Shown: positions 8,523-20,347 of the stretch, in pieces
Position numbering within the stretch: position 1 is the first letter of the stretch
How the letters are laid out: every line of letters begins with the position of its first letter
NCBI GenBank assembly: GCA_003249935.1
Contig: QKHT01000085.1
Span: 1-38,659 of the forward strand
Length of the DNA stretch: 38,659 nucleotides
DNA from: Bacteroidota bacterium
GTDB taxonomy: Bacteria; Bacteroidota; Bacteroidia; Bacteroidales; UBA5342
Direction: 5' to 3'
The notes under the pieces: model-generated
What the model saw: only the letters and a program-made list of their open reading frames with translations
What the model was told of the DNA's origin: nothing
The model's database searches: none
Program-made: the position numbers and the translations under genes

Positions 8523-9731
8523 ATGAAAGCAATAAGCTTATTTATTGGATTGTTTTGTGTTACTGTTTTTGGGTTCAGTCAAAACATAACACGCTGGCGT
8601 GGTGTAAATGGAAACGGTATCTATAACGACCATAACCTGCTGAATAGCTGGCCTGAAAGTGGACCGGAGATTGTTTGGCATTTTGATGATTTGGGAATCG
8701 GTTTTTCGTCGCCGGCTTTTGATGGGAACAAAATTTATATTACCGGCATGAATGGTTCTAATGGCGTTTTGTATGTGCTTTCGTTAAAAGGCGAGTTGAT
8801 TCTTAAAAAAGAATATGGCCCCGAATGGGAAACAAACTACAACGGCACCCGCAGCACCGTTACGGTTGCCGGCGATCGTTTATACATTTACTCCGGATTG
8901 GGTGTACTGTATTGTTTGGATGCAAATTCGGGGAATAAGATTTGGCAAAAGGATATGATGAGCGATTTTGATGGCAAAAATATTGAATGGGGTGTAACCG
9001 AATCGGTCGTGGTCGATGGCGAAATGGTATATTGTACGCCTGGTGGCTTAAAGAATAATGTAGTGGCCCTTAATCGATTGAATGGAAATCTGATTTGGAG
9101 TTGTGCGGCTGCGGGCAATCTTTCGGCCTATTGTACGCCTTTATTGGTTGAACACAACGCTCGGAAAATTCTGGTGACTATGACTGCTGCAAATATTGTT
9201 GGTATTGATGCCAAAACCGGTAAAATGCTTTGGAAATACGAACAAAAGAACAGGTGGTCGGTTCATGCCAATACCCCTGTATATTCCGATGGTAGTTTAT
9301 ACTGTGTGAGTGGTTACGGCTGTGGTGGCGTAAAGCTTAGATTGAACCAATCGGGCGATAGCGTTACAAAAGAGTGGTTTAATGCCACCCTCGATAACCG
9401 TTTTGGCGGTGTGGTTGTAATGAATGGTTATGCTTACGGTTCTGGTGATAAAAACCGCCAATGGCAATGTGTGGATTTTACAACCGGTATGCAAAAATAC
9501 ACGCTTACAACCATTGGACCGGGTGCAATTATTGCAGCCGACGGTAAGTTGTATGTTTATTCACAAACCGGCGAACTTGGAATGCTCAAACCCGAATCAA
9601 CAGGATTTAATCAATTGGCTGTAACAAAAGTTATGCTTGGTAGCGGGCAACATTGGGCACATCCGGTAATTTTCGATGGCTTACTGTATGTACGCCACGG
9701 CAACAGCCTTATTGCTTACAAAATAAAATAA
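8523..9731 (+). CDS. Secreted PQQ-like beta-propeller protein (BamB-type)
   Basis: A 402-aa protein with a signal peptide (MKAISLFIGLFCVTVFGFSQ). The mature start ITRWRGVNGNG is the WRG/FRG entry motif often seen in such proteins. Blades end in the PQQ-repeat signature: LYCLDANSGNKIWQK (about residue 124), VALNRLNGNLIWS (about 182), VGIDAKTGKMLWKYE (about 225). PQQ-fold propellers may bind the quinone cofactor or, as in BamB, act as protein scaffolds; no dehydrogenase catalytic features are visible, so a scaffold or binding role is more likely. It is followed after 5 bases by a membrane-anchored paralogue and then an NHL-type propeller, forming a three-gene unit. Confidence 0.85.
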   Translation: MKAISLFIGLFCVTVFGFSQNITRWRGVNGNGIYNDHNLLNSWPESGPEIVWHFDDLGIGFSSPAFDGNKIYITGMNGSNGVLYVLSLKGELILKKEYGPEWETNYNGTRSTVTVAGDRLYIYSGLGVLYCLDANSGNKIWQKDMMSDFDGKNIEWGVTESVVVDGEMVYCTPGGLKNNVVALNRLNGNLIWSCAAAGNLSAYCTPLLVEHNARKILVTMTAANIVGIDAKTGKMLWKYEQKNRWSVHANTPVYSDGSLYCVSGYGCGGVKLRLNQSGDSVTKEWFNATLDNRFGGVVVMNGYAYGSGDKNRQWQCVDFTTGMQKYTLTTIGPGAIIAADGKLYVYSQTGELGMLKPESTGFNQLAVTKVMLGSGQHWAHPVIFDGLLYVRHGNSLIAYKIK

Positions 9732-9736
9732 TTGTC

Positions 9737-11152
9737 TTGAATCAACGATTTAGTGTAACGACACTGCTTATTGGTGGATTGGCACTGGGAGTTTTAGGGT
9801 GGTGGCTTTTTTATAATCCGGTAAGCACGCTGATGCCGAGTTTGCCGGGTGCCGATAAACGTGGTGTGGGCGATTCTGCATCTCAAAGTGTTAGTATAGG
9901 TGAATTTTTCGATCAGTTTGCCGAATCATCAACGTCTTTAACAGGAGTTTGGCCTCAATTTCGCGGGGAAGGTTCAACCAATATATTATTAGAATCCGTA
10001 CCGTTGAAAACAGTACTGAATGACGGTAAATTGCCTGTTGTTTGGGAAAAAACGCTTGGCGAAGGCCATGCCGGTGCATCTGTTTACAAAGGTCGGGTGT
10101 ATGTTATGGATTACGACGAAGCTTTGCGTGCCGATATGTTACACTGTTACGAACTACAAACGGGAAATGAATTGTGGCGACGATATTATAAGGTGGCAAT
10201 AAAACGTAACCATGGGATGTCTCGTACAGTACCTGCTGTAAACGAACAAGCTGTAGTTACCATAGGGCCCATGTGTCAGGTTATGGCAACCGACCGGCTG
10301 ACCGGCCGGCTGTTGTGGTCGCTCGATATGGTAAAGGCATATGGTTCCGAAGTACCGTTCTGGTACACCGGACAGTGTCCGCTAATATTTAACAATATGG
10401 TTATTCTGGCTCCTGCCGGATCCAAACTCCTTATTGCCAAAGATGTGGTTTCAGGCCAAACACTCTGGGAAAGCGAAAACCCGGGAGGCTTTAAAATGTC
10501 GCATGCCTCGGTAATGCCCTATGTTTTTGGCGGCAAAAACATGTTGGTGTATAGTGCTGTGGGTGGTGTTGCCGGGGTAGATGCCGAAAATGGCAAGGTG
10601 CTTTGGTACACCAATAAATGGAATCATTCGGTGGTGGCTCCATCGGCTGTTTGTTTGCCAAATGGAAGAATTTTTCTCACCGCTGGTTATGGTGCCGGAA
10701 GCATGATGCTTAGAATAAAGGAACTTAATGGGGTGTTTGGTACAGATATTGAGGATGAGTATTCGCCGGGTTCCGGATTGGCGTGTGAACAACAAACGCC
10801 CCTCTTTTTCGATGGCAAACTTATTGGTATTCAGCCCAAAGATGGCGGTTCGAACCGAAACCAACTGGTTTGTGTCGATCCTGAAAATCTGAAAAAGGTA
10901 GAGTGGAGTAGTGGTAAAAATTATCGTTTTGGACTTGGCCCTTTTATGATTGCCGATGGCAAAATATTCATTCTCGACGATGAAGCCAATTTAACAATTG
11001 CCAAAGCAACGATAAAGGGTTTTGAACCGATCACCACAGTTAAACTTTTTGAAGGTGCCGATGCATGGGCTCCTTTTGCCCTGGCCGATGGCTACCTGAT
11101 TCTGAGAGATTCGAAAAAAATGGTGTGTTTGAACCTTAAAAAGCAGTCGTGA
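9737..11152 (+). CDS. Membrane-anchored PQQ-like beta-propeller protein
   Basis: The best start is TTG 9737, 5 bases after the previous stop, giving 471 aa. It keeps the N-terminal anchor (SVTTLLIGGLALGVLGWWLF, about residues 6-25) in place; no ATG lies at that point. The propeller begins near WPQFRGEGSTN and shows PQQ-type blade ends: CYELQTGNELWRR, ATDRLTGRLLWSLD, AKDVVSGQTLWESE and GVDAENGKVLWYTN. It is a paralogue of the preceding gene, with the same FRG entry motif and overall plan, but held in the inner membrane by a single uncleaved helix. Its stop overlaps the start of the next gene (TGATG), so the two are translationally coupled. The function is unknown. Confidence 0.83.
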   Translation: MNQRFSVTTLLIGGLALGVLGWWLFYNPVSTLMPSLPGADKRGVGDSASQSVSIGEFFDQFAESSTSLTGVWPQFRGEGSTNILLESVPLKTVLNDGKLPVVWEKTLGEGHAGASVYKGRVYVMDYDEALRADMLHCYELQTGNELWRRYYKVAIKRNHGMSRTVPAVNEQAVVTIGPMCQVMATDRLTGRLLWSLDMVKAYGSEVPFWYTGQCPLIFNNMVILAPAGSKLLIAKDVVSGQTLWESENPGGFKMSHASVMPYVFGGKNMLVYSAVGGVAGVDAENGKVLWYTNKWNHSVVAPSAVCLPNGRIFLTAGYGAGSMMLRIKELNGVFGTDIEDEYSPGSGLACEQQTPLFFDGKLIGIQPKDGGSNRNQLVCVDPENLKKVEWSSGKNYRFGLGPFMIADGKIFILDDEANLTIAKATIKGFEPITTVKLFEGADAWAPFALADGYLILRDSKKMVCLNLKKQS

Positions 11153-12114
11153 TGAAACATAAACAAATTTTGATGACTGTTCTTGCCCTTACACTCAGTG
11201 CAACTGGCTTCATTTTAATGGATTTGTACGATAATCAACCCGAAAACAGACCCGATAATCCGTTCGAGCTTAAAACCGATTCGCTAAGATCGGTACCTGC
11301 ATCGGAAATTGGTTATAAATTGGTTCGACAATTCCGGCTCGATAGCGGCGAAGTAAACGGAATAGCCTGTTTCGATAATTTACTGTGGATAGCAACAAAT
11401 CGTGGTGTGGCAACACTCGACACTTCGGGGTTAAAAACCAACGTTTTAGTTTCTCAAATACCGGTTCAAACCATCACTATAAATGGAAATTGTGTTTTTA
11501 CAGGAAGTAAAAACCATGTTTTGGTACTTGATAAAAAATCGCTTGTAATGATGTTCGAAAAATCTTTTTCTGACTCATCTTTAATTACTTCGTTAGCGTT
11601 TTGGGGTAATCGGTTTGTGGTGGCCGATGCAGGCAAACGATGCATTTACCTGCTATCTAAGGATGGCACCATCGAACAAACAATTGATGGTACAATCGGT
11701 CGTGAAGAAAAGCATGGCTTTGTAGTGCCCGGTCCGTATTTCGATGTGGCAGTTAATAGCGATAATGAATTGTGGGTGGTGAACCCGGGGGGTCACGCTT
11801 TCGAGAATTATAGTACCGATGGCGCGATGCGGTCGTTCTGGAGTCGGTCGGCTAAAGGTATTTATGGTTTTTTGGGATGTTGTAATCCCGCCCATTTTGC
11901 CTTTTTGCCTAATGGTTACTATGTAACAGCCGAAAAGGGGGTCGTGAGAATCAAGGTATTTAAAGCATCGGGCGAACCACATTGTTATGTCGATTCGCCC
12001 ATGTCGTATATTCGTCATTTTCATGCACCCGAATTGGCTGTAGATGAACAAGGTAGTATCTATGCGCTGGATTTTGAACAAGGCTGCATCAATAAATATG
12101 TAGCAATAAAATGA
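11152..12114 (+). CDS. NHL-repeat-like beta-propeller protein with GCCNP motif
   Basis: A 320-aa protein with an N-terminal hydrophobic segment (about residues 5-24, ILMTVLALTLSATGFILM) that is a signal peptide or anchor. The rest is a six-bladed propeller of NHL/SMP-30 style, for example NGIACFDNLLWIATNRGVATLD and FDVAVNSDNELWVV. Near residue 240 is GFLGCCNPAHFAFLPNGYYVTAEKGVVRIKVF, given here as GFLGCCNPAHFAFLPNG then YYVTAEKGVVRIKVF: an adjacent Cys pair I recall from NHL proteins of Bacteroidota and Planctomycetes, though its role is not known to me. ATG 11152 is preferred; a GTG codon sits immediately before it. It overlaps the upstream gene by one base and is followed by a terminator at 12133-12157. 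Confidence 0.8.
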   Translation: MKHKQILMTVLALTLSATGFILMDLYDNQPENRPDNPFELKTDSLRSVPASEIGYKLVRQFRLDSGEVNGIACFDNLLWIATNRGVATLDTSGLKTNVLVSQIPVQTITINGNCVFTGSKNHVLVLDKKSLVMMFEKSFSDSSLITSLAFWGNRFVVADAGKRCIYLLSKDGTIEQTIDGTIGREEKHGFVVPGPYFDVAVNSDNELWVVNPGGHAFENYSTDGAMRSFWSRSAKGIYGFLGCCNPAHFAFLPNGYYVTAEKGVVRIKVFKASGEPHCYVDSPMSYIRHFHAPELAVDEQGSIYALDFEQGCINKYVAIK

Positions 12115-18650: not shown

Positions 18651-18684
18651 AAAGAGGTTGCCCTTCAGGCAACCTCTTTTTTTT
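18651..18684 (+). terminator. Intrinsic terminator after the T9SS cargo gene
   Basis: A 12-base stem, AAAGAGGTTGCC (18651-18662) with GGCAACCTCTTT (18668-18679), has loop CTTCA and an extended T-run. Confidence 0.92.
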
Positions 18685-18738: not shown

Positions 18739-20274
18739 ATGATTAATTTAAAGATTGATGGGATTGAAATTCTGGTTGCCGATAATACAAAATTGATAGA
18801 TGCAGCCCAAATGGTTGGAGTCGAAATTCCTTCCATGTGTCATAACAATGCCTTGCCGCATTTTACATCATGTATGGTTTGTATGGTAAAGGACGCAGTT
18901 ACCGGGCGGCTCATCCCATCATGTTCTTCCATTGCAGCCGAAGGACAACAGATAATTACTAAAGACATTGAGGTTGTTGCAGCAAGAAAAATGGCTTTGG
19001 AGTTGCTCTTAAGCGAGCATTATGGCGATTGTGAAGCACCCTGCACCACTGCATGTCCTGCACATATGGATATTCCGGGAATGAACCGTGCTTTGGCTGC
19101 CGGTAATGCAGATGGCGCGTTGGAAATCGTGCTTCAAAAGATCGCTTTGCCATCGATACTTGGCTTTATTTGCCCTGCCCCTTGCGAAGGTGTATGCCGT
19201 CGTAAACCCGTAGATCGCACAGTAAATATATGCGTATTAAAACGATTTGCTTCCGATAATGGTCTTGTAGATTTGAATAAATTTCGCACAAATAGGCTTG
19301 TTGGAAAACGTGTTGGTATTGTTGGTGCAGGTGTAGCCGGGTTGACTGCTGCATTTTATTTGTCGTTGAATGGTGCCGAAGTGCATGTTTTTGAAAAAAA
19401 AAGTATGCCTGGCGGTGAAATTACCGACACCGATTTTAATGGATTTTTACCCGAAAAAGCTGTTTTAAGGGATTTTAATAGAATTGTGGAGGCCGGTGCA
19501 GTTTTTCATTTTAATACACACATTACCTCAAAAGAAATTGGTTCGATCATTGAAACGTATGATGCAGTAATTATTGCAGTTGGTCGGTTTTGCGACGAAA
19601 TGCGTGAATGGCCCGTAGCGGTTGATTCGGATGGATTTGTGGTCGCTTCAGATGATTATTTCTGTTCGGGCAATGTATTTGTGGTAGGGAGTTCTGTAAG
19701 GCCCACACGGCTGGCTATTCGTATTGCTGCGCAAGCATGGCAGGCTTTTCATTCTGTTTCAAAATTTTTATTGGCTGAACCGCATTCTCATCAGTCGGTT
19801 TGCTTCAATTCATCCTATGGAAAAACCGGCGCAGATCACGTGCTCTCCTGGAAAAAATCTGACATGGTTTCGAATCAAGTCGAATTTAAGACCGGATTTG
19901 TTGGTAACGAAGCTAAACAAGAGGCTTTACGCTGTTTGCACTGTGATTGCTATAAGCCAAACAATTGTAAATTACGCATATATGCATCAGAATACGGCGC
20001 GCGACAGGAAAAGCAAAGACCATTGTTGAAAAATAAACCACATCGGCAGTGTGACTCTGAAAATATAATCTTCGAACCTGTGAAGTGTATTAAATGTGGC
20101 ATTTGCGTTAGGTTGGCCCGGAAATACGATGTTTTACCGGGGTTTACATTCTCGGGAAGAGGATTCGATAGTGTCATAACAATTCCATTTGGTGCTGATT
20201 TGAAAAGTGCTGTTGGCGATTATGGCAAAATGTTCGCCGAGGCATGCCCCACAGGGGCTATCTCATTTCTGTAA
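18739..20274 (+). CDS. Multi-cluster iron-sulfur FAD oxidoreductase, NAD(P)H-binding domain apparently absent
   Basis: A 511-aa protein. Residues 1-75 form a plant-type 2Fe-2S ferredoxin domain (C34, C45, C48, C62). Residues 93-175 match the helical iron-sulfur domain of glutamate synthase small subunit (GltD): CEAPCTTACPAHMDIPG, then CPAPCEGVCRRKP. An FAD Rossmann motif, VGIVGAGVAGLTAAFYL, starts at about 192. After YDAVIIAVG (274-282) a GltD-type protein would have a second GxGxxG NAD(P)H domain of about 150 residues; here NVFVVGSSVRP, the end of the FAD domain, follows within 30 residues. Further Cys motifs are RCLHCDC (399-404) and a C-terminal half-ferredoxin, CIKCGIC (450-456) with ACPTGAI (502-508). 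A cytoplasmic electron relay using ferredoxin or a partner is inferred. It is transcribed alone. Confidence 0.8.
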   Translation: MINLKIDGIEILVADNTKLIDAAQMVGVEIPSMCHNNALPHFTSCMVCMVKDAVTGRLIPSCSSIAAEGQQIITKDIEVVAARKMALELLLSEHYGDCEAPCTTACPAHMDIPGMNRALAAGNADGALEIVLQKIALPSILGFICPAPCEGVCRRKPVDRTVNICVLKRFASDNGLVDLNKFRTNRLVGKRVGIVGAGVAGLTAAFYLSLNGAEVHVFEKKSMPGGEITDTDFNGFLPEKAVLRDFNRIVEAGAVFHFNTHITSKEIGSIIETYDAVIIAVGRFCDEMREWPVAVDSDGFVVASDDYFCSGNVFVVGSSVRPTRLAIRIAAQAWQAFHSVSKFLLAEPHSHQSVCFNSSYGKTGADHVLSWKKSDMVSNQVEFKTGFVGNEAKQEALRCLHCDCYKPNNCKLRIYASEYGARQEKQRPLLKNKPHRQCDSENIIFEPVKCIKCGICVRLARKYDVLPGFTFSGRGFDSVITIPFGADLKSAVGDYGKMFAEACPTGAISFL

Positions 20275-20319: not shown

Positions 20320-20347
20320 AAGGCCTGAAATTTTAATTTCAGGCCTT
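20320..20347. terminator. Bidirectional terminator between the FAD oxidoreductase and OmpA genes
   Basis: AAGGCCTGAAATT (20320-20332) pairs with AATTTCAGGCCTT (20335-20347), with A-rich sequence on the left and T-rich on the right. It serves two convergent genes. Confidence 0.8.

Follow-up and report, generated by a model that had tools for sequence, protein, structure and literature searches.

The gene at 18739–20274 on the forward strand of the window, the 38,659-nucleotide stretch of Bacteroidota DNA analysed here, encodes a 511-residue protein (T) that lacks the NADPH domain of its closest characterized relatives. The gene is intact and shortened family-wide, not decayed, because the same form is found at 38 other loci. 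We favor, at a probability of roughly 55%, a reading in which T would serve as a BfuA-type relay between a BfuCB protein and a membrane partner, with the FAD kept and the use of NADPH lost. The features of T and its immediate surroundings are as follows.

18651..18679, + strand: intrinsic terminator-like stem upstream of T (12-bp stem and T run)
18739..20274, + strand: T, putative BfuA/StnC-like relay subunit without NADPH domain, 511 aa (open reading frame; homology to StnC/NfnA)
18739..19029, + strand: [2Fe-2S] ferredoxin domain, NuoG/HydA-like, residues 1–97 (Fer2_4; C34, C45, C48 and C62 invariant in all classes)
19030..19296, + strand: GltD-type Fe-S domain, residues 98–186, with the lysine ligand position K168 (Fer4_20, E 9e-17; K168 aligns with StnC K170)
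19297..19782, + strand: FAD domain, residues 187–348, joined across the missing NADPH domain (invariant G196, G198, G201, G225 and G226)
19561..19662, + strand: junction at which the NADPH domain (~150 residues) is missing (residues 270–285 in both phmmer domains against 8oh5_C; junction sequences)
19690..19692, + strand: Ser318, which stands where the final FAD motif has its Asp, GS instead of GD (Asp in Stn and green sulfur proteins, Asn/Ser in the T class)
19912..20271, + strand: C-terminal NuoG-like region with N5-like C399/402/404/410 and N4-like C450/453/456/503 [4Fe-4S] sites (weak Fer4_Nqo3 match; NuoG structural match)
20320..20347, no strand assigned: bidirectional terminator-like stem downstream of T (12-bp stem)

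Domain Composition of T

The reading frame of T comprises 511 codons with zero internal stops and stands alone in the window between its two terminator-like stems. Pfam returns Fer2_4, Fer4_20, FAD-type Rossmann matches, and a weak match to an Nqo3-type ferredoxin domain, while the best NCBIfam model is PRK12814 (NF009454; E 6e-97), which scores 325 bits against a cut-off of 916. Of the proteins with solved structures, those most similar to T in sequence are StnC/NfnA subunits of electron-bifurcating transhydrogenases (8oh5_C, 9bov_A, 9n5u_A). An AlphaFold model of T (pLDDT 79.1) aligns over 498 of 511 residues with residues 3–674 of Sporomusa StnC (Z 36.3, rmsd 3.0), over ~250 residues with GltD/NfnB (Z 25–30), and over ~200 residues with NuoG (Z about 22). 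An earlier note on this DNA had proposed that the 2Fe-2S, GltD-type, and C-terminal clusters are retained. Indeed, the ligands of the 2Fe-2S cluster, of the GltD-type domain (C98/102/106/145/149/153 with K168), and of both NuoG-like sites are all invariant across the T class. A further cysteine, Cys165 (19231–19233), lies three residues before K168; it is invariant in 39/39 proteins of the T class and in 3/3 green sulfur homologues, and its position is Asp in Stn and Arg, Lys, or Ser in forms without FAD.

Loss of the NADPH Domain

The central claim of that note, that the NAD(P)H domain is missing from a GltD-like FAD/Fe-S protein, holds. Between YDAVIIAVG and NVFVVGSS (aligned residues 280–308) T has 27 residues, compared with 188 in Stn-type proteins and 177 in the green sulfur relatives, and the interval absent from T is the one that holds the second GxGxxG (GGGNTA) Rossmann domain in full-length relatives. 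The NADPH-binding Rossmann domain that characterizes Stn/Nfn-Bfu BfuA is absent from T in both the sequence and the model, and of the two-Rossmann fold of GltD/NfnB, which binds FAD and NADPH, T has the FAD Rossmann only. 8oh5_C aligns with T in two blocks, and residues 270–285 of T belong to both, which places the join between two strand motifs that resemble each other. YDAVIIAVG aligns with each of the strand motifs flanking the NADPH cassette in full-length relatives, DAV..IG at its start and D.V.ATG at its end. Removal in register between these motifs would let the FAD domain read straight through. We therefore picture a cassette that was probably cut out between two similar strands to leave a closed FAD domain; the loss itself is plain from the alignments.

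The replacement of GD by GSS in the final FAD motif is likewise real, and a family trait. Every Stn-type (11/11) and green sulfur (3/3) protein has Asp here; among the short proteins, 38 cover the position, and 37 of these carry Asn or Ser. The Arg at the StnC R239 position, present in 11/11 Stn proteins, is Phe in T and variable in its class. The lysine at the StnC K170 position is present as K168 in 39/39 members of the T class, as in 11/11 Stn proteins, and the FAD glycines are (nearly) invariant among the 39 sequences.

Distribution and Selection

The same shortened form, with its neighbors, was sought in relatives, as the earlier note had suggested, and was found at 38 other Bacteroidota loci; in relatives, T lies in a conserved operon. 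These loci come from independent assemblies, including the named Ancylomarina assemblies L048 and L068, the latter from the cultured Ancylomarina euxinus, and span many Bacteroidales families and one Cyclobacteriaceae bin; the proteins of the class are about 480–574 aa long. Full-length orthologues in very close relatives, which would have told against the reading of that note, were not seen among the loci searched, where full-length homologues occur only in Stn systems and green sulfur bacteria. In close pairs of the T class the dN/dS of the FAD domain is about 0.04–0.18, which denotes purifying selection. Considering these values together with the (nearly) invariant FAD glycines and K168, the suggestion that FAD chemistry was lost altogether is not the best reading, and a wholly dead FAD domain is disfavored.

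T of the window is itself the most diverged member of its class, with 7 deviations at near-invariant columns, two of which, G333A and A337F, lie in the helix that follows the FAD motif. Since it also does not adjoin BfuCB in its own genome, selection may be relaxed here. This divergence and the broken-up operon (see below) are what might be seen if the gene had suffered a local deletion in this genome, were a pseudogene, or had been misassembled, but the frame is open, the ligands are intact, and the same architecture recurs at the 38 other loci; we reject such explanations as next to impossible.

Conserved Operon and the BfuCB Partner

In relatives, the operon runs from a beta-propeller, an NHL-repeat protein, a ferredoxin, a NapH-like membrane polyferredoxin, and a propeller with hydrophobic N-terminal segments, through a fused NuoE-like and HydB/StnB-like protein (BfuCB), T, a propeller, and a GT4 glycosyltransferase, to a LolD-like ATPase and a MacB/FtsX-like permease, which together make an ABC exporter. 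BfuCB, a HydC-HydB/StnA-StnB-like fusion, lies upstream of the T homologue at 61 of the 62 loci with room for it, so that BfuA is found with BfuBC in 61/62 relatives; in the genome of the window the two are on different contigs. The NapH-like gene is upstream of T at 47/49 loci and the ferredoxin (Tat) at 44/49, and the LolD-like ATPase is downstream at 42/43. A limited literature search turned up no description of the operon or of the shortened subunit in Bacteroidetes.

In the genome of the window, the operon genes are split over three places. The window contig holds T, propellers, and the NHL protein; contig C197 holds the ferredoxin, the NapH-like protein, a propeller, and BfuCB; and contig C3 holds a propeller, GT4, the ATPase, and the permease. 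Three genes stand in a row at 8523–12114 of the window, two for PQQ_2-type beta-propellers and one for an NHL-repeat protein, and two of the three are homologues of operon genes:

9713..11152, + strand: PQQ_2-type beta-propeller with an N-terminal hydrophobic segment, homologue of the first operon gene (53.6% identity to the L052 operon gene; PQQ_2)
11149..12114, + strand: NHL-repeat protein with an N-terminal hydrophobic segment, operon-gene homologue (41.8% identity over 99% to the L037 operon gene; NHL)

The window thus has a displaced operon fragment ~6.6 kb upstream of T. The idea that the propellers are PQQ quinoproteins was set aside, as no PqqE-family match over the cut-off was found in the genome, which is a weak test.

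The ferredoxin of this genome contains four cysteine motifs and opens with a signal of the Tat type, NRRGFFKSG. The NapH-like protein combines two CxxCxxCxxxC motifs with several hydrophobic stretches. The NapH and NapG assignments of the operon partners come from weak domain matches; the NapH/MauN ferredoxin-type family model gives 42.9 bits against a cut-off of 213, and the partner is taken only as working like that family. At seven rumen Bacteroidaceae-type loci (L086, L088, L089, L092, L095, L098, L099), a short form of T without FAD is fused in frame to the downstream propeller, and the fusions pass through a hydrophobic, lipobox-like segment of the lipoprotein type, which suggests that T sits at the inner membrane face.

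The BfuCB of this genome (L120:7324-9669) has a BfuB part that can be aligned over its whole length with StnB, NfnB, and HydB and is closest to the Nfn-Bfu BfuB proteins 9n5u_B, 9bov_B, and 8oh5_B, then to HydB proteins. The domains of BfuB, a NuoF core, an N-terminal thioredoxin-like 2Fe-2S domain, and a C-terminal two-cluster ferredoxin, are seen in its L037 homologue (65% identity over 99%), in which the thioredoxin-like [2Fe-2S] domain of BfuC is fused N-terminally (PF01257, residues 10–151). Bifurcating BfuB proteins are recognized by the ligands of the B2 cluster, C438, T/C476, H525, C531, and C536 (7t2r_B numbering), with Thr at 476 in two thirds of the family; the His is kept in nearly all bifurcating members and is absent in non-bifurcating homologues (PMC9304861). 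All five positions are kept here, including the diagnostic His, with Thr at 476, and the partner is thus bifurcation-competent by sequence.

Other redox genes were noted in passing. Two pairs of NuoG/HydA-like and HydB-like genes occur on contigs C101 and C221 of the same genome (L003, L004, L106, L107); these pairs, whose HydA-like proteins have 596 aa, are probably hydrogenases or relatives. At positions 1–999 the window holds the last part of a ferredoxin oxidoreductase pair of the 2-oxoacid (indolepyruvate) type, identified by eye, which is a possible source of reduced ferredoxin.

Graded Losses and the Role of the FAD

The homologues fall into length classes. Stn-type full proteins have ~1150–1240 aa, and T belongs to class A, the 511-aa class. 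Classes B (349–367 aa) and C (about 318–329 aa) are both without the FAD domain, and in class D (204–222 aa; L102, L103) the whole GltD insert is gone, its two members carrying a NuoG-type HxxxCxxCxxxxxC motif. In a BfuB tree rooted on Stn, all forms without FAD make one clade (92) inside the FAD-bearing forms (94); class B forms a single clade (100), and L102 falls inside the ~320-aa class C group. In a T tree built on the shared Fe-S columns, classes A, B, C, and D group together (90), with the full-length green sulfur proteins next and Stn outside; class A is here a clade (83), sister to the forms without FAD, and not paraphyletic. Both trees place the loss of the NADPH domain ahead of that of the FAD domain; paraphyly of class A is less certain, and the deepest branches are long, which is a caveat against our best explanation. 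By these trees, FAD loss did take place in the sister clade, where the domain was deleted outright at a later step, and two members dropped the whole GltD insert.

The lysine ligand follows the FAD. The FAD-proximal cluster of StnC has K170 among its ligands, and this residue is important for activity (PMC10482914). Its K168 equivalent is lost in 31/33 class B and C proteins and kept in two, and residue 142, which is Gly in 50/50 Stn and class A proteins, is Cys in 33/33 of class B and C. A simple reading is that a four-Cys cluster replaced the lysine-tuned cluster once FAD was gone, with residue 142 as a putative ligand; a structure model of a homologue without FAD was too poor for use (pLDDT 60.6). 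Because K168 was lost together with FAD, it can be argued that FAD still works where K168 is kept.

These data also bear on whether T is a plain NuoG/HoxU-like wire whose FAD domain is a structural leftover, flavin-free or redox-silent and on its way out. Loss of the GD Asp and of the StnC R239 residue, which is important for NADPH-driven activity, means that the FAD of T may be redox-silent; the sister clade lost the domain and kept the operon, and dN is higher in the FAD domain than in the Fe-S domains in most close pairs. We nevertheless consider this account unlikely, though a serious contender, since the FAD glycines and K168 are conserved in 39 sequences with dN/dS well below 1, and since K168 and the cluster ligands change upon FAD loss, so that a kept K168 marks a working FAD-cluster pair. 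More improbable still is that the FAD has become the active site for a new two-electron substrate, such as menaquinone, in the space vacated by the NADPH domain. Selection on the FAD fold and the invariant Cys165 near K168, shared by the T class and green sulfur homologues, would fit such a site, but sister clades without the FAD domain keep the same neighbors, which is hard to square with an essential FAD reaction.

Proposed Mechanism

Our preferred reading is that T acts as the relay subunit, of the BfuA type (NuoG/StnC-like), in an NADH/ferredoxin enzyme of the Bfu family, the NAD(H), FMN, and ferredoxin sites of which would lie in the separate fused BfuC-BfuB protein. Its ancestor would have been an NADPH-handling subunit of the StnC/NfnA type, with a GltD module in the N5-cluster region of a NuoG-like protein. 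Judging from selection, FAD is probably still bound and feeds the lysine-ligated cluster, its own partner no longer being NADPH. That partner is most likely the NapH-like membrane polyferredoxin of the same operon, followed by the Tat-exported four-cluster periplasmic ferredoxin. A one-electron membrane partner is favored by the dropping of FAD in a clade that keeps the same neighbors, as well as by the T-propeller fusions. From gene content, the fusions, and the later FAD loss, we infer this membrane partner and the direction of flow: NADH and/or reduced ferredoxin would be oxidized in the cytoplasm, and electrons would leave through T. The proposal of the earlier note that T could be an electron relay free of NAD(P)H is supported for T, which lost the domain, kept the Fe-S chain, and is best read as a relay, but not for the predicted complex, where NAD(H) probably still reacts at the FMN of the partner subunit.

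A broader proposal, which we put forward tentatively and at somewhat less than even odds, is that this Bacteroidota Bfu class, not described so far, is a membrane-tethered NADH/ferredoxin confurcating machine that delivers electrons to a periplasmic multi-cluster ferredoxin, and that its relay subunit shed first the NADPH domain, then the FAD domain, and then the GltD insert, exchanging Lys for Cys at the FAD-proximal cluster upon FAD loss. Schut et al. described 17 BfuB clades of non-obvious function (PMC9304861); the present analysis ties a BfuB lineage to a conserved operon that is predicted to encode an Fe-S conduit across the cell envelope. As a natural dissection of StnC, the stepwise losses separate the needs of NADPH, FAD, and the lysine-ligated cluster. 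They lead to the prediction that the unusual lysine serves as a ligand in order to couple the cluster to FAD.

Comparison with Known Systems

The Bfu and Nfn-Bfu/Stn family and its mechanism class are already known (PMC7483475, PMC10482914, PMC9304861). With GltD/NfnB (NfnL), T shares the Fe-S domain and the FAD half of the fold; the NuoG-like parts are missing from those proteins, which do possess the NADPH domain. The N-terminal region of NuoG, HoxU, and the 247-aa NuoG-like 9mqx_A have the 2Fe-2S, N5-like, and N4-like clusters of T, which differs from them in its GltD insert in the N5 region.

The nearest lineage to T with an NADPH domain is the green sulfur protein of about 660 aa matching PRK12814, which has the single-cluster C-terminus and Cys165 as in T. 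Unlike T, it keeps the NADPH domain, GD, and the Arg, and its neighbor genes are unrelated; no full-length BfuB-like match was found in the five green sulfur genomes checked. It is a stand-alone 660-aa NuoG-GltD protein with its NADPH domain intact (L141, L142, L143; the FMO protein is found in 5/5 genomes) and might supply electrons from NADPH to a complex I that has no NuoEFG.

StnC (Sporomusa Stn, Nfn-Bfu BfuA; 8oh5_C, 9bov_A, 9n5u_A) has in common with T the 2Fe-2S domain, a GltD module inserted at the same place, the lysine at the FAD-proximal cluster, and the NuoG-like C-terminal clusters, and the BfuB partner of T is closest to StnB. Compared with StnC (1172 aa), T (511 aa) is without the NADPH domain, the GD Asp, R239, and the second C-terminal ferredoxin cluster, and it ends after the N4-like cluster, where Stn has an FdhF-like C-terminal domain. 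Since T does not have the defining NADPH domain, we do not file it as a Stn/Nfn transhydrogenase. The system to which it belongs differs from Stn further in that BfuC and BfuB are fused and the operon adds NapGH-like, propeller, and ABC genes.
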